A stretch of DNA of 64,000 nucleotides from Brevundimonas pondensis (GTDB taxonomy: Bacteria; Pseudomonadota; Alphaproteobacteria; Caulobacterales; Caulobacteraceae), in assembly GCF_017487345.1 (NCBI RefSeq), contig NZ_CP062006.1:310001-374000 (forward strand). Direction: 5' to 3'. Of the stretch, positions 54,663 to 64,000 are shown one piece after another (position 1 is the first letter of the stretch; each line of letters starts with the position of its first letter). The position numbers were made by a program, and so were the translations under genes. The notes under the pieces are model-generated. The model saw only the letters and a list, made by a program, of their open reading frames with translations. It was not told where the DNA came from and did no database searches.

Positions 54663-56552
54663 TCAGGCGTCCACCGTCCGGTCGACGAAGTTGGGGTTGG
54701 GCGGGGTGTCTGTATGGCCGCCGACCCCGGCGGGCACGGCGAAGCAGACGGTCGCGCCCTGCTCGGCTGTCGTCACCACATGGCGGAAGGCCCCGAACAG
54801 TTCGCGGCCATAGCCCCAGGACGCGCCCTCGGCGTTGGCGGTCGAACGGACGGCCAGGGGGCGCGCGGTCAGATCGGCCACGCCTACCGTGGTCAGCACC
54901 CCGGCCTCGGCGTCCAGACGGATGATGTCGCCGTCGCGCACATGGGCCAGAGGGCCGCCGGCCAGGGCCTCGGGCGAGACGTGGATGGCGGCGGGGGTCT
55001 TGCCGCTGGCGCCCGACATGCGGCCGTCGGTGACGAAGGCGACCTTGAAGCCCTTGTCCTGCAAGACGCTGAGCGCCGGCGACAGGGAGTGCAGTTCCGG
55101 CATGCCGTTGGCCTTCGGGCCCTGGAAGCGCAGCACCAACACCACGTCGCGGTTCAGCTTGCCGTCCTTGAAGGCCTGCAAGGCGTCTTCCTGGGTCTCG
55201 AACACGGCGGCGGGGGCCTCGACGATGCGGTTCTCGGGCTTGACCGCGGAGATCTTGATCACCGCCCGGCCCAGGTCGCCTTGCACCAGCCGCAAACCGC
55301 CCTCGCGGTCGAAGGGATCGGAGGCGGGGCGCAGAATGTCGCGGTCCAGACTTTCCGACACGCCGTCGCGCCAGACCAGTTCCCCGTCGATCAGCGACGG
55401 CTCCTGGAAATAGGCCTCGATGCCCTGACCCATGACGGTCACGACGTCGGTGTGGATATTGCCCGCCTGCGCCAGCTCACGCGCCACAAAGGCCACGCCG
55501 CCTGCAGCCTGGAAGGCGTTCACGTCGGCCGAGCCGTTGGGATAGACCCGCGCAAGCAGCGGCGTCACCGAAGACAGCTGGTCCATGTCGGTCCAGTCGA
55601 TCAGCACCCCGGCCGCCCGCGCCATGGCGACCAGATGGATGGCATGGTTGGTCGATCCGCCGGTGGCCAGCAGGGCCACGATCATGTTGACGATCGACTT
55701 CTCGCTGATGACGTCGGCCATGCGGCTCTCGCCCGAGCGGGCCAGTTCGACGGCGCGCTTGGCGGCGGCGGCGGTCAAGGCGTCGCGCAGACCCGTCTCC
55801 GGATGGACGAAGGCGGTCGAGGGCAGATGCAGCCCGCCCAGCTCCATCATCATCTGGTTGGAGTTGGCCGTGCCGTAGAAGGTGCAGGTGCCGGGCGAGT
55901 GATAGCTGCCGATCTCGCTGGCCAGCAGGGTGGTGCGATCCACCAGGCCTTGCGCGTATTCGGCGCGGACACGGGCCTTTTCGGCGTTGGGAATGCCCGA
56001 CGGCATCGGCCCCGCTGGCGCGAAGACGACCGGCAGGTGCCCGAACGCCAGGGCCCCCATGAACAGACCCGGCACGATCTTGTCGCAGACGCCGAGCATC
56101 ATGGCGGCGTCAAAGGCGTCGTGGGTCAGGGCCACGCCCGTCGCCATGGCGATGGCGTCACGACTGAACAGCGACAGCTCCATGCCTGGGCGGCCTTGGG
56201 TGACGCCGTCGCACATGGCCGGGGTTCCGCCGGCCACCTGGGCCGTGGCGCCGACCTCACGCACCGCCTTGCGGATCACGTTGGGGAAGCGCTCGAACGG
56301 CTGATGCGCCGACAGCATGTCGTTGTAGGCGGTGACCACGCCGACATTGGGCTTGGACCCGTCCATGGCCGTCAGCTTGTCGGCGATGGTCTGGCCGGCA
56401 AACGCATGCGCCCAGTTGGCGCAGCTCAGCTTGGCCCGTCCGGCGCCGCTGTCGCGGGCGGCGTCCATGCGGCGCAGATAGTCGGCGCGGGTCGCCTTGC
56501 TGCGTTCGGTGATGCGGGCGGTGACTTCCGCCACCACAGGATTGAGCGCCAT
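54663..56552 (-). CDS. edd: 6-phosphogluconate dehydratase
   Basis: This 629-residue protein has the IlvD/Edd-family motifs [68 protein letters not shown] and [20 protein letters not shown], with the Cys residues that hold the iron-sulfur cluster. It dehydrates 6-phosphogluconate to KDPG. The ATG at 56552 overlaps the pgl stop; upstream codons belong to pgl. First dedicated Entner-Doudoroff enzyme. Confidence 0.96.
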
Positions 56553-57257
56553 CAGACAGCCTCCGTCCAAAGCACTTCGAGGGGAACCTTGGCCGCGATC
56601 ATTGCGGCGATGGGGTGGATGCGCGGATCGCCCGCCGCCTCGCGTTCGAACACGGCGCGCTTCTTCGCGCCGGTCAGGGCCAGGACCACGCGGCGGGCGG
56701 AAATCAGATAGGGCAGGTTGATCGACAGGCGTTCCTGCGGCGGGGCCATCCCGTCCCGGCCCGGCGGCACGCCATAGACGGCGGGCTTCAGGTTCGGCGT
56801 CAGCAGGGTCTTCAGTGTCGGGCTTTCGGGGAACATGGAACAGATATGCCCGTCCTCGCCCATGCCCAGCAGGACGGCGTCCAGACGCGCGTCGTCAGTC
56901 GCCAGCGCCTTCGACGCCTCGGCGGCGGCGCGGTCCACGGTGACCGAGGGCGCATAGAGCGGCAGGAAGCGCGCGGCGGCGGCGGGGCCGGTCAGCAGGG
57001 TCCGCTTCATCAGGGCCGCGTTCGAGTCCGGCGAGGTCTCGGGTACATAGCGTTCGTCCACCAGGGTCGCCGTGACCTTCGACCAATCCAGATCGGCTTG
57101 CGCCAACCGCGCATAGACGGGCGAGGGGGTCGATCCGCCCGCGCCGGCGAAGACCGCGCGGCCCTGGGCGGCGACGCCCTCGGTCAGGGCTTCGGCCAAT
57201 CGCGCGGCGGCGGCCTCGGCCCAGGCGGCGGCGTCGGGGAAGGTTTCGATGGCGGGA

Positions 57258-57265
<8 letters not shown>
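56552..57265 (-). CDS. pgl: 6-phosphogluconolactonase
   Basis: This 237-residue DevB-type lactonase has VFAGAGGSTPSPVYARLA, TLVDERYVPETSPDSNAALM, LLGMGEDGHICSMFPESPTL and LPYLISARRVVLALTGAKKR. It hydrolyses 6-phosphogluconolactone to 6-phosphogluconate. The start overlaps the end of zwf by 8 bp, and the stop overlaps edd. Confidence 0.94.
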
Positions 57266-58718
<1,453 letters not shown>

Positions 58719-58767
58719 TCGTCCCGTTCCTCCCTGGTCCCGACGCGCGGGATATTCGCCTCAAGGC

Positions 58768-59406
58768 CTAGGCTTCGGTCTTGGCCGCTTCCGCGCGCTT
58801 CGCCAAGACGACCAGTACGTCCTGAAACACCATGTTACGGGCATGGAGAAGGACGAGCAGGTGATAGATCAAATCCGCCGCCTCGCTGGCGAGTTCCGCT
58901 TCATCGCCCGCCGCGCCCGCCAGAGCCGTCTCCACGCCCTCCTCGCCGACCTTCTGGGCCGCGCGTTTGGGGCCCTGGGCGATCAGGCGCGCGGTCCAGC
59001 TGTCATTGGGATCGGCCTGGGCGCGAACCTGAATGGTGCGTTCCAGGCGGCCGATGCGGCCCAGCCCGGGCGCGTCCTCGTCGCCGAAGCAGCTGACGCG
59101 GTTCAGGTGACAGGCGTTGCCGACCGGGCGGACCTTTACCACCACGGCGTCGCCGTCGCAGTCGGGCGTTACCGAGACGACATTGAGGAAGTCGCCCGAG
59201 GTCTCGCCCTTGCGCCACCGCCCGCCGCGCGAGCGCGAGAAGAAGGTGGCTTGGCCGCTGTCCAGCGTCTCGCGCAGCGCCGCCTCGTCCATATAGGCCA
59301 GGGTCAGCACCTGCAGGGTGTCGGCGTCCTGCACCACGGCGGGGATCAGGCCGTCGCCCTTGGCGAAGTCGATCTTGGAAATGTCGAGGGTGTTGGCGAG
59401 GGTCAT
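58768..59406 (-). CDS. hisI: Bifunctional PRA-CH / PRA-PH (HisIE-like)
   Basis: In this 212-residue protein the N-terminal half is phosphoribosyl-AMP cyclohydrolase (WRKGETSGDFLNV, then DCDGDAVVVKVRPVGNACHL; metal Cys and His). The C-terminal half is the HisE-type pyrophosphohydrolase (QKVGEEGVETALAGAAGDEA, then EAADLIYHLLVLL). They catalyse two early steps of histidine synthesis. The start at 59406 (MTLANTLD) was chosen because the longer in-frame extension reads through the repeat element upstream. Confidence 0.93.
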   Translation of the reverse strand: MTLANTLDISKIDFAKGDGLIPAVVQDADTLQVLTLAYMDEAALRETLDSGQATFFSRSRGGRWRKGETSGDFLNVVSVTPDCDGDAVVVKVRPVGNACHLNRVSCFGDEDAPGLGRIGRLERTIQVRAQADPNDSWTARLIAQGPKRAAQKVGEEGVETALAGAAGDEAELASEAADLIYHLLVLLHARNMVFQDVLVVLAKRAEAAKTEA

Positions 59407-59415
59407 GCGTTTGAT

Positions 59416-59543
59416 CCGCTCATCCCCGCGGAGGCGGGGACCCAGGTTTGAGCCATCTGACGGACGGCGGCCTTGTTCGCGAAACCCAAGGCGTGGCGTT
59501 CGTCGCCAAAGCACTGGGTCCCCGCCTCCGCGGGGATGAGCGG
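59416..59543. repeat. Hairpin element with perfect 30-bp TIRs, copy 1 (between hisF and hisI)
   Basis: 59416-59445 (starting CCGCTCATCCCCGCGG) is the exact inverse of 59514-59543. The 68-bp interior differs from copy 2, apart from a GAGCCA near the left end and CCAAAG near the right. The unit fills almost the whole 148-bp hisF-hisI gap, whereas the other his junctions overlap. Confidence 0.82.
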
Positions 59544-59554
59544 GAAAAAGGAGG

Positions 59555-60318
<764 letters not shown>

Positions 60319-60322
<4 letters not shown>

Positions 60323-61053
60323 GACGCCACGGCCTTCAGCGCCTCAGCCACGGTGAATCGGCCCTCATAGATGGCCCGCCCGACGATGGCCCCGTCGCAG
60401 CCCAGATCGCGCGCGGCGGTCAGGTCGGCCAGCGACGCCACCCCGCCCGAGGCCTGGATCTTCAGTTCGGGCCGACGCGCCAGGGCTTCGCCCAGCAGGT
60501 CGAGATTGGGCCCGGTCAGGGCGCCGTCTCGGCCCACGTCGGTCATCAGCACATGGGTCAGCAGGTCGGACGGATAGCGCGCCAGCACGCTCCACAGATC
60601 GACCCCCGCCGACTGGGTCCAGCCCTTCAGCGCCGGCACCGGAACCCCGTCCTCATATTTCACGTCCAGCGCCAGGGTGATGCGCTCCGACCCGAACCGA
60701 TCCAGCCAGGCCAGCACCTCGTCGGACTTCGTCACAGCCAGCGACCCGACCACGACGCGGCTGACGCCCGCCTCCAGCAGACGCTCGACATCGGCCTCGG
60801 ACCGCACGCCGCCGCCCGACTGGATTTTGACCGCGACGGACCCCGCCAGCTCGCCGATCAGGCCGTGCTGCATGGCGCGCCCGGCCTCGGCGCCGTCCAG
60901 ATCGACGACGTGGACCCAGTCGGCCCCCTCAGCCGCGAAGGCCGCCAGACGCGCGGCCGGGACCTCGTCATAGCGGGTCACCTGATCGAACCGCCCGTGC
61001 ATCAGCCGCACGCAGACGCCGTCCTTCAGGTCGATGGCGGGATAGACGATCAT
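60319..61053 (-). CDS. hisA: Phosphoribosylformimino-AICAR-P isomerase
   Basis: This 244-residue (beta/alpha)8 barrel has the catalytic Asp8 in [18 protein letters not shown] and the second Asp in [10 protein letters not shown], with phosphate motifs [13 protein letters not shown] and [11 protein letters not shown]. Same fold as HisF. Coupled to hisH and hisF by 4-bp overlaps. Confidence 0.96.
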
Positions 61054-61652
61054 GCGGGCAACTCGAGGAAGTTCTTCAGGATACGCGCGCCCGCAGCGGC
61101 GGACCGTTCCGGGTGGAACTGGCAGCCCCAGCGGTTGCCCATGTTGACCACGGCGGGGACAGGGACGCCGTAGTCGGCGGCGGCGAGGGTCGTTGGGCCG
61201 TCGGGGCAGACGAAGCCATGGACGAAATAGGCCCAGTCGCCATCCTTGATCCCCTCCAGCAACGGATCGGGACGACGGATGGTCAGCCGGCTCCAGCCCA
61301 TGTGCGGCGAGGGGCGAGACGGAGCGGGCGCGATGGCCTCGACCCGACCGGGGATCAGACCCAGCAGGTCGGCGCCCCCATCTTCGGCGCTGGTCTCGAA
61401 CAGCAACTGCTGGCCCAGGCAGACGCCCAGCAGCGGACGCTGGAACCGTCGCAACGGCTCGACCAGACCCAGGGCGTTCAGCCGCTGCATGGCATAGCCC
61501 GCCGCCCCGACGCCGGGCAGGATGACCCGCTCGGCATCAATCAGATCGGCGGGATCGGCGGTGATCCGCACCCGCGCGCCCAGCCGCTCCAGCGCGAACC
61601 GCACCGAGGCGACATTGCCCGCGCCGTAACCGATCAGGGTGACGCTGCTCAT
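61050..61652 (-). CDS. hisH: Imidazole glycerol phosphate synthase, glutaminase subunit
   Basis: This 200-residue class I glutaminase has oxyanion PGVGAAGYAM, nucleophile Cys in LGVCLGQQLLFE (about 78) and the His/Glu pair in FHPERSAAAG. Supplies ammonia to HisF. The ATG at 61652 lies 8 bp downstream of copy 2 of the TIR element. Confidence 0.96.
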   Translation of the reverse strand: MSSVTLIGYGAGNVASVRFALERLGARVRITADPADLIDAERVILPGVGAAGYAMQRLNALGLVEPLRRFQRPLLGVCLGQQLLFETSAEDGGADLLGLIPGRVEAIAPAPSRPSPHMGWSRLTIRRPDPLLEGIKDGDWAYFVHGFVCPDGPTTLAAADYGVPVPAVVNMGNRWGCQFHPERSAAAGARILKNFLELPA

Positions 61653-61659
61653 CTATTCA

Positions 61660-61790
61660 CCGCCCATCCCCGCGGAGGCGGGGACCCAGTGAGAGCCACG
61701 CACGCCGCCCTTGGCTTCAATGCGGTCGAGACGGTCGCTGTCGCGCGTGAGGCCAAAGGACTGGGTCCCCGCCTCCGCGGGGATGAGCGG
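61660..61790. repeat. Hairpin element with 30-bp TIRs, copy 2 (between hisB and hisH)
   Basis: Ends 61660-61689 and 61761-61790 are inverted copies with one mismatch and match the TIRs at 59416-59543. The interior differs. It occupies nearly the entire 152-bp gap before hisH. Confidence 0.82.
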
Positions 61791-61804
61791 AAACGGAACG
61801 CTCA

Positions 61805-63238
61805 TCACAGCACCCCCTTGGTGCTCGGCACGACATCGCCCTGGACCCGGATGGCCTGAAGCAGGGCGCGGCCCAGGGCCTTGAACACGGCCTCGGTCTT
61901 GTGGTGGTCGTCGTCGCCGGTGACGCGGACGTGGATGGCCGCGCCCAGGCTCTCGGCCAGCGACCGGATGACGTGGGCCGTCAGGTCGGTGCGATAGTCG
62001 CCGATGAAGGGGGTGGCGAACGTCCCCTCGAACACCGGATAGGGCCGTCCCGAGAGGTCGATGGAGACCGCCGCATTGGCCTCGTCCATCGGCAGGACGA
62101 AGCCGTAGCGGGCGATGCCCTTTCGCTCGCCCAGCGCCTGCTTCAGCGCCTGCCCCAGGGCAATCGCGCAGTCCTCGATGGTGTGGTGCGGGTCGGTGTG
62201 CAGGTCGCCTTCGCACGACAGGCGGATGGAGAATCCGCCGTGCGCCGCCACCTGTTCGATCATGTGGTCGAAGAAGCCGACCCCGGTGGCGATCGTCACC
62301 GGCCCGGCGCTGTCCAGATCGACGGCGCAGACGATGCGGGTTTCCTTGGTGTCGCGCACGGCCTGTCCGACGCGGGTGCGGCGGACCTTGGGGGCGGCGG
62401 CGCCCAGGGCCACCAGCAGGCGGTCGTTGACCTCGGGCTTCAGCGAGACGGGCAAGCGCACCCGTTCGCCGGCTTCATCAGCGCTCAGGCCGAAACGGCG
62501 CAGGTCGGCGATGACGGCGGCCGGATCGGAGGGCCGGGCGATGATCACCGGCCCGACCCCGGCCTCCAGCGGCATCAACCGCGACAAGGCCTCCACCACG
62601 CGGGCGCGCTCGCGCCGCACCCCGTCGATGCGCTCGGTGGTTTCAATCATCCGTGACGGGTCCAGCGCCTGTAGCGCCAGCCGCACCGAGACCTCGGGCA
62701 GGGCGTAGGGCTCCAGCACGCTCGCCAGCCGCGCCAGCGTCTGCAATTGCGCCACCGCCGCCCCGACCCGCGCCCCGGCCAGACCATAGGCCAGCGACAG
62801 GCTGCGCAGGACGATCAGGTTGGCGTGGTCTTTCGCGACCGTCGCCGCTGACGCCGCCTCGGCGAACTCGACCAGGCCCTCGTCCACCACCAGCAGGGCG
62901 GGGGCGACGCGCTCCGCCATTTCAGCCACCGCCTCGGGCGAGCCCAGGGCGCGGATGACCACGGCGGCGACCTCGACCCCTTCGGCCGGACGGGCGTAAA
63001 GCGCCGCCAGTCCCAGATAGGGCTCGGCCTCCGGCGCTTGCACCTTCAGTCCGTCGCGGGCGGCCAGACGCCAGACCAGTTCCAGCCCGTGCGTCAGGCC
63101 GCGCACCGGCAGCACCTGATCGGCGGCGACGCCGTAAAGCTCGGCCAGACGGGCGCCCAACGCGGTCGGGTCGGCCGGATAGCGGTCCAGACCCTCGCCG
63201 CCCGACACCAGCGGGGGATAGGGGGCGGGCAGGGTCAC
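61805..63238 (-). CDS. hisB: Fusion of degenerate aminotransferase domain and imidazoleglycerol-phosphate dehydratase
   Basis: In this 477-residue protein, residues 1-280 follow the fold of histidinol-phosphate aminotransferase (VVDEGLVEFAEAA; VRLPVSLKPEVNDRLLVALG), but the PLP-lysine motif reads RSLSLAYGLAG, with Leu at position 149 where HisC has Lys; the upstream Gly-rich PLP pocket is also weak. Residues 285-477 are an intact IGPD (HisB) domain: FFDHMIEQVAAHGGF, DPHHTIEDCAIALG, GDDDHHKTEAVFKALG and PSTKGVL. GTG start overlaps hisD stop as GTGA. The aminotransferase half is probably catalytically dead, whereas IGPD should be active. Confidence 0.88.
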   Translation of the reverse strand: MTLPAPYPPLVSGGEGLDRYPADPTALGARLAELYGVAADQVLPVRGLTHGLELVWRLAARDGLKVQAPEAEPYLGLAALYARPAEGVEVAAVVIRALGSPEAVAEMAERVAPALLVVDEGLVEFAEAASAATVAKDHANLIVLRSLSLAYGLAGARVGAAVAQLQTLARLASVLEPYALPEVSVRLALQALDPSRMIETTERIDGVRRERARVVEALSRLMPLEAGVGPVIIARPSDPAAVIADLRRFGLSADEAGERVRLPVSLKPEVNDRLLVALGAAAPKVRRTRVGQAVRDTKETRIVCAVDLDSAGPVTIATGVGFFDHMIEQVAAHGGFSIRLSCEGDLHTDPHHTIEDCAIALGQALKQALGERKGIARYGFVLPMDEANAAVSIDLSGRPYPVFEGTFATPFIGDYRTDLTAHVIRSLAESLGAAIHVRVTGDDDHHKTEAVFKALGRALLQAIRVQGDVVPSTKGVL

Positions 63239-64000
63239 GCTTCGGTCCTCAGATCGGCGGCCCGCGCGTGGGCCTCCAGCCCCTCCATTCGCGCCAGACG
63301 GGCGGCGACGGGGGCGAGGGCGGCGGCGCCGGCTTGCGTCACCATCTGCACCGACATGGTGGTCATGAAGCTGGCGGTGGTGACGCCGCCCAGGGTCCGC
63401 GCCCCGCCGTCGGTCGGCAGGACGTGGCTGGGCCCGGCGGCGTAGTCGCCCAGCGTCTCGGCCGCCCATTGCCCCACGAAGACCGCCCCGGCGGCGGTGA
63501 TCCGCTCCACCAGCCGCTCGGCCTCCTCGGCCTGAATCGACAGGTGTTCAGGGCCGTAGAGGTTGGCCACGAAGCAGGCCTCGGCCATGTCGGCCACGCG
63601 GATAGCGCGGGCCTGCTCCAGCGAGGCGCGGGCGATCGCGGCGCGGGGCAGGGTCTCCACCTGACGCTCCACCTCGGCCCTGATCTCGGTCAGGGCCGTG
63701 CCGCTGTCGGACACCAGAATGACCTGCGCGTCGGCGTCGTGCTCGGCCTGGCTCAACAGGTCGGCGGCGACGATCTCGAAGTCGGCGTCGCGGTCGGCGA
63801 TGACCAGCAGTTCCGACGGCCCCGCCGGCATGTCCTGCGCAGGCCCGTTCGGCAGGCTGGACGCATAGCGCTTGGCCTCGGCCACATAGGCGTTGCCGGG
63901 GCCGAACAGCTTGTCGACCGGTTCGATCACGCCCGCCTCCAGCTCGACGCCGAAGGTCAGGGCCGCAATGGCCTGCGCCCCGCCCAGCAGCCACAGCTCG
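63235..64000 (-). CDS. hisD: Histidinol dehydrogenase (5' end outside window)
   Basis: The open frame continues to the window edge. The visible C-terminal part of about 255 residues includes the zinc- and substrate-binding signature DKLFGPGNAYVAEAKRYASS, AGPSELLVIAD and the catalytic NLYGPEHLSIQAEEAERL. Oxidises histidinol to histidine. First visible gene of the his operon, overlapping the downstream fusion by GTGA. Confidence 0.94.
   Translation of the reverse strand, partial: ELWLLGGAQAIAALTFGVELEAGVIEPVDKLFGPGNAYVAEAKRYASSLPNGPAQDMPAGPSELLVIADRDADFEIVAADLLSQAEHDADAQVILVSDSGTALTEIRAEVERQVETLPRAAIARASLEQARAIRVADMAEACFVANLYGPEHLSIQAEEAERLVERITAAGAVFVGQWAAETLGDYAAGPSHVLPTDGGARTLGGVTTASFMTTMSVQMVTQAGAAALAPVAARLARMEGLEAHARAADLRTEA

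Follow-up and report, generated by a model that had tools for sequence, protein, structure and literature searches.

Pseudoenzyme domains and fusions of histidine-biosynthesis (his) genes are both already known. In the accessible part of a 2007 survey of his fusions, seven fusing his genes are named, with hisC not among them and the word "hisC" absent from that text (PMC1963479), and the available part of another paper describes the hisNB and hisIE fusions (PMC8305728). A search of titles and abstracts, with most subscription journals outside its range, returned no paper on a HisC-HisB, HisD-HisB or pseudo-aminotransferase fusion. Here we describe a gene of Brevundimonas pondensis, located in a 64,000-nucleotide stretch of contig NZ_CP062006.1 (hereafter the window), in which a domain related to the aminotransferase HisC is fused to the imidazoleglycerol-phosphate dehydratase (IGPD) domain of HisB. 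The fused HisC looks like an enzyme domain turned structural leftover: in our view it is probably a pseudo-aminotransferase without catalytic activity, which a separate HisC rendered redundant and which is retained as a folding or assembly module of the IGPD.

On the minus strand, a single gene with a GTG start at 63238 and a stop ending at 61805 encodes the 477-residue fusion, which matches both TIGR01141 and PF00475 and lies exactly where an earlier note, made from the sequence of the window, had placed a HisB fused to a HisC-like domain. Its parts are the following:

61805..63238, minus strand: pseudo-HisC::HisB fusion gene, GTG start, 477 amino acids (open reading frame and family matches)
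62387..63238, minus strand: pseudo-HisC domain, residues 1-284 (TIGR01141, alignment to 1fg3, Foldseek)
62792..62794, minus strand: CTG codon of Leu149, in the position that the pyridoxal phosphate (PLP) Schiff-base lysine occupies in HisC (K214 in E. coli; alignment to 1fg3)
61808..62383, minus strand: IGPD (HisB) domain, residues 286-477, with presumed ligand residues kept (PF00475; aligned solved IGPDs, among them 1rhy and 6fwh; invariant columns)

Residues 1-284 match HisC at 97 bits in TIGR01141, below that model's cut-off of 276.55, and with an E of 3e-14 in PF00155. K214 of E. coli HisC (1fg3) aligns with Leu149 of the fusion, encoded by CTG at 62794-62792, so that the Schiff-base lysine that marks a HisC is absent, as the earlier note had read it. 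That note's degraded cofactor pocket is real: the counterparts of N157, Y110 and Y187 are gone, as is that of the SRGADE Asp; those of D184, S213 and R222 are present in 70/70 readable Brevundimonas rows, that of R335 in 68/70 and that of Y55 in 67/71. The Brevundimonas alignment comprises 71 rows, one of which (L004) is gapped at these residues by alignment, though its Leu is seen otherwise; the roles in the pocket of all nine residues are those we take them to have. The domain is also 73 residues short of an intact fused HisC (P0002), lacking P0002 residues 1-32 (the N-terminus, 32 residues), 121-141 (21) and 158-164 (7) along with smaller stretches; the 21- and 7-residue gaps fall in the PLP domain, and the latter is the SPNNPTG stretch. 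Many structural residues are shared by three separate dead groups (for example P0002 R65, Y70, R92, D185, E186, S196, L213, N343 and L347). With its catalytic residue gone and purifying selection still acting on it, the domain is a putative pseudoenzyme.

The C-terminal half is an IGPD. Residues 318-459 match PF00475 with 195.1 bits (cut-off 27), placing the protein in the IGPD family, and when solved members of that family, 1rhy and 6fwh among them, are aligned with it, residues 286-477 prove to be a complete domain. H325, H351, H352, E355, H422, H445, H446 and E449, which we take to be the metal ligands, are invariant in 38/38 aligned fusions, in agreement with the earlier note's view of an intact His/Glu set. 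The best-scoring IGPD model was PRK05446 (HisNB), with 257.8 bits against a cut-off of 443 and a match confined to residues 286-477, which leaves the protein outside HisNB; a HisN-like phosphatase is encoded at a separate site in the same genome (C1:3536663, 291 bits).

The loss of the lysine is shared by relatives, a check that the earlier note had called for. Among 76 related loci taken from genome contigs, three (L069, L070 and L076) do not span the lysine site; the remaining 73 carry 69 Leu, 2 Met, 1 Phe and 1 Lys, and 72/73 thus lack Lys. An additional same-genus copy (G159, L256) has Ser. The single Lys locus, L075, encodes a protein 100% identical to that of genome G140, and L075 and G083, both of the same genus as the window, have full-length fusions with every tested HisC residue present. 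The earlier note had held that relatives with Lys would refute its reading; they do occur, but are full-length, intact fusions of the older type, and therefore date the loss rather than reveal Leu as an error. One locus, L005, on a contig labelled as a Bordetella metagenome-assembled genome, has a fusion 87% identical to that of the window, and is probably a misbinned Brevundimonas contig.

Selection on the dead domain was compared with that on the IGPD by the ratio of nonsynonymous to synonymous rates (dN/dS), which was 0.33 for the dead domain and 0.17 for the IGPD in Brevundimonas (38 sequences, 700/703 pairs), 0.28 and 0.11 in group g4 (138/190 pairs), and 0.45 and 0.21 in family f3 (3/10 pairs). 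For intact fusions the corresponding values for HisC and IGPD were 0.08 and 0.06 in family f4 (2 usable of 120 pairs) and 0.16 and 0.08 between G083 and L075 (1 pair). Relative to the IGPD, the dead domain evolves 2.5-3.1 times and the live domain 1.4-3.9 times as fast. Third positions account for 0.54 of the changes in the dead domain of Brevundimonas and 0.50 in g4, where neutral change would give one third. The dN/dS pattern therefore points to a constraint on the dead domain that is relaxed, not gone. An AlphaFold2 model (mean pLDDT 86.2, pTM 0.59) had 1fg3 as its best Foldseek match in the PDB (E 1.9e-16, 25% identity, TM 0.67 by target length), its input alignment including the intact HisC of L075.

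A functional hisC elsewhere, as the earlier note expected, has an apparent counterpart in a standalone gene of the same genome (C1:168322-169371, 301 bits and thus over the cut-off), which has the lysine. Counting TIGR01141 matches above 276.55 in each genome, the fused copy was the sole HisC in 17/24 genomes with an intact fusion, and a second one was found in the other seven (G551, G392, G400, G567, G417, G083 and G140). Where the fused HisC is dead or absent, a separate HisC was present in 37/37 genomes, over the cut-off in 36 and just short of it in G464 (275.6 vs 276.55); four of the 37 (G118, G105, G081 and G043) were classed as dead solely because their fused copy scored low. The genomes in these counts are kin, not independent, and no significance is claimed. 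The presence of a standalone HisC would explain why the death of the fused HisC was tolerated. In 16/18 loci of f3, g15 and g40 (exceptions L167 and L170; own-genome HisC as query), the separate hisC comes directly after hisF and closes the same operon, whereas in Brevundimonas it lies outside the his operon. Thirteen same-genus genomes lack IGPD, and nine of these (G052, G090, G095, G110, G120, G121, G132, G156 and G164) also lack HisD and are likely histidine auxotrophs; HisC is over the cut-off in 8/9 and in two pieces in G090. The separate HisC of Brevundimonas probably has a further use besides the histidine step. The open reading frame upstream of the own-genome hisC had no Pfam match, and a role of this hisC in an aromatic pathway is a guess.

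Across the order and class, the fused domain occurs in a range of states. In a search of 390 genomes of the family, 354 had a match at 1e-40; in Caulobacter-like groups (g13, g20 and others) the match was in the IGPD alone, and HisB there is different and free-standing. Intact, full-length fusions have Lys at the site in 24/24 rows (L075/G140, G083 and 22 from families f4 and f5), and among 385 genomes searched from other families of the class, eight (L239-L246) match over nearly the whole length of the fusion, the two that were read both having Lys. The lysine is absent in 20/20 rows of g4 (10 Tyr, 10 Phe) and 10/10 rows of f3/g42, and is replaced by Leu in G464 and G275 and by Ser, at full length, in G468. 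In six f4 loci, only ~185-232 residues are left N-terminal to the IGPD; a profile of this remnant aligns with the small domain of HisC (P 1e-4 against intact HisC and 8e-6 against pseudo-HisC, with HisD, HisA and HisH controls at P 0.17-0.32). HisD is fused directly to IGPD in ten loci of two unrelated groups, f3 and f4 g38 (L171, L172, L174, L175, L177, L194, L197, L216, L217 and L218), and in the 3/10 tested with Pfam both domains lay in one frame. No bare IGPD was present among the 144 tabulated fused-type HisB loci (134 plus the 10 HisD-fused). A further 23 matches, outside these 144, lie in open frames of 404-714 codons, a length that is no proof of a partner.

The history of the fusion was examined with a tree of IGPD, HisH, HisA and HisF (50 rows), parsimony and approximately unbiased (AU) tests. 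At least four changes between intact and lost HisC were required by parsimony. A single clade of Brevundimonas, g4, g15, f3 and G464 was not rejected (p-AU 0.51), and all five share an N-terminal truncation and other changes; they may form a single old dead lineage, which the truncation fits. A fast tree had suggested that Brevundimonas and g4 lost the lysine independently, a reading withdrawn on these same grounds. The other changes are those in G468, which stands beside the intact G393 (Shimodaira-Hasegawa-like approximate likelihood-ratio support 99), in the f4 remnants and in G495, the placement of G495 and G083 being weakly supported. For the HisD-HisB fusion, a single origin overall was rejected (p-AU 1.3e-60) and a single origin within f3 was not rejected (p-AU 0.398), so that the three origins counted by parsimony were lowered to at least two. 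The fusion probably predates the death of the fused HisC, with a bifunctional HisC-HisB as ancestor.

Under the reading that we favour, a bifunctional fusion enzyme would have been the starting point, and a separate HisC catalyzing the same reaction would have made the fused HisC redundant, after which the PLP lysine and a portion of the PLP domain would have disappeared from the latter. What remains, a pseudo-aminotransferase domain, would form no product, would probably not bind PLP, and would have been retained for the folding or assembly of the IGPD chain; the HisB step would then be carried out by the IGPD half and the HisC step by the standalone enzyme. The earlier note had offered a scaffold, allostery or substrate channelling as roles. 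Scaffolding or assembly is the best supported of these, by elimination, and allostery survives as a rival. Channelling by a dead domain is unlikely, since the residues that would handle cofactor and substrate have been lost and other lineages do without the domain altogether. Going further, we suggest tentatively that the IGPD of this lineage might depend on any N-terminal partner, be it a HisC (live, dead or reduced to a small remnant) or, where HisC is gone, HisD, joined to HisB on at least two independent occasions; the dead domain would then be an entrenched chaperone-like or assembly part, exchangeable but not droppable.

Several observations weigh against a retained folding or assembly module. 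Other lineages have lost most or all of the fused HisC domain, and dN/dS is higher in the dead domain (0.28-0.45) than in intact HisC (0.08 and 0.16, from few pairs), a faster change from which it follows that part of the domain is simply decaying. In G083 and G140 an intact fusion coexists with a separate HisC, so that redundancy by itself need not bring immediate death. Frame breaks occur in two same-genus fused genes, near the old active site in L214:7179-8599 (= G131, one contig) and near the start of the IGPD in L076:2-999 (at a contig end); these may be real or errors, and if they are real, the IGPD of these copies would need a start of its own. The predicted fold, finally, is partly assumed, given the intact HisC in the AlphaFold2 alignment.

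The best-surviving rival, which we still judge unlikely, is that the domain is a useless relic that persists only as the in-frame lead to an essential IGPD, where stops and frameshifts are lethal and missense changes and in-frame deletions accumulate. The in-frame shrinkage in the six remnant loci, the total loss in the HisD-HisB fusions and a dN/dS above that of the IGPD would all fit such a relic, but a dN/dS well under 1, the excess of third-position changes over the neutral share and the many structural residues that three separate groups have in common would not. A ligand-sensing domain, whose old pocket binds histidine or a phosphorylated imidazole (substrate or product) and tunes the IGPD, would account for the pocket residues kept in nearly all Brevundimonas rows; these may be structural, however, and the remaining active-site residues differ among groups, the R222 equivalent being Pro in 10/10 rows of f3/g42 and that of R335 gone in 20/20 rows of g4, which leaves no common conserved pocket and makes the sensor quite improbable. 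An aminotransferase still active through another residue, though the equivalents of the substrate Arg and PLP Asp are kept, is scarcely credible with the lysine, N157, Y110 and Y187 equivalents all gone and a full separate HisC in the genome. A sequencing or assembly error, or a pseudogene that arose recently in one strain, has nothing but the two frame-broken copies in its favor and was dismissed, since 72 loci from many species share this state, as do two further groups at genus level.

The operon runs hisG-hisD-hisCB-hisH-hisA-hisF-hisIE, with hisG and hisIE identified by eye. The fusion gene is thus flanked by hisD and hisH, its GTG start overlapping the hisD stop by 4 bases. Its neighbors in the window are:

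63235..64000, minus strand: hisD, continuing past the window end (genome C1:373247-374482; open reading frame)
61050..61652, minus strand: hisH (open reading frame; matched as HisH query in relatives)
60319..61053, minus strand: hisA (open reading frame; query match in relatives)
59555..60322, minus strand: hisF (open reading frame; query match in relatives)
58768..59514, minus strand: hisIE-like open reading frame, the final his gene of the operon (named by eye from sequence)

The gap between the fusion and hisH (61660-61790) contains a 31-nt inverted repeat with arms 97% complementary and 69 nt apart, which presumably resembles an interspersed repeat; Rfam had zero matches over window positions 56000-64000.

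Within one order, these genes form a natural series from live to dead at full length (G468, with Ser at the lysine site), dead and shortened, reduced to a small remnant, and finally replaced by a new partner. From each genome one can tell whether the trigger, a second copy of the activity, is present, which allows tests of why pseudoenzyme domains persist, whether by use, dependence or linkage. For annotation, HisB records in this group carry a false aminotransferase domain, and the fused HisC is not to be counted as a HisC. Like HIS4, HIS7, hisIE and hisNB, the window gene joins genes of the his pathway, and it differs in being HisC-derived, hisC being absent from the accessible survey text (PMC1963479). 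HisC itself (E. coli 1fg3; TIGR01141) is the ancestor of the N-terminal domain, by 25% identity and by predicted fold in Foldseek, whereas the domain in the window has no Schiff-base lysine, is shorter than intact fused HisC and scores 97 vs 276.55 bits. The C-terminal domain is as complete as that of other IGPD HisB proteins (PF00475), with the invariant His/Glu set, but is preceded by a dead HisC domain. As in E. coli HisNB (PRK05446), the IGPD has an N-terminal partner from the his pathway, but its score falls below 443 and that partner is derived from HisC, not from a phosphatase.
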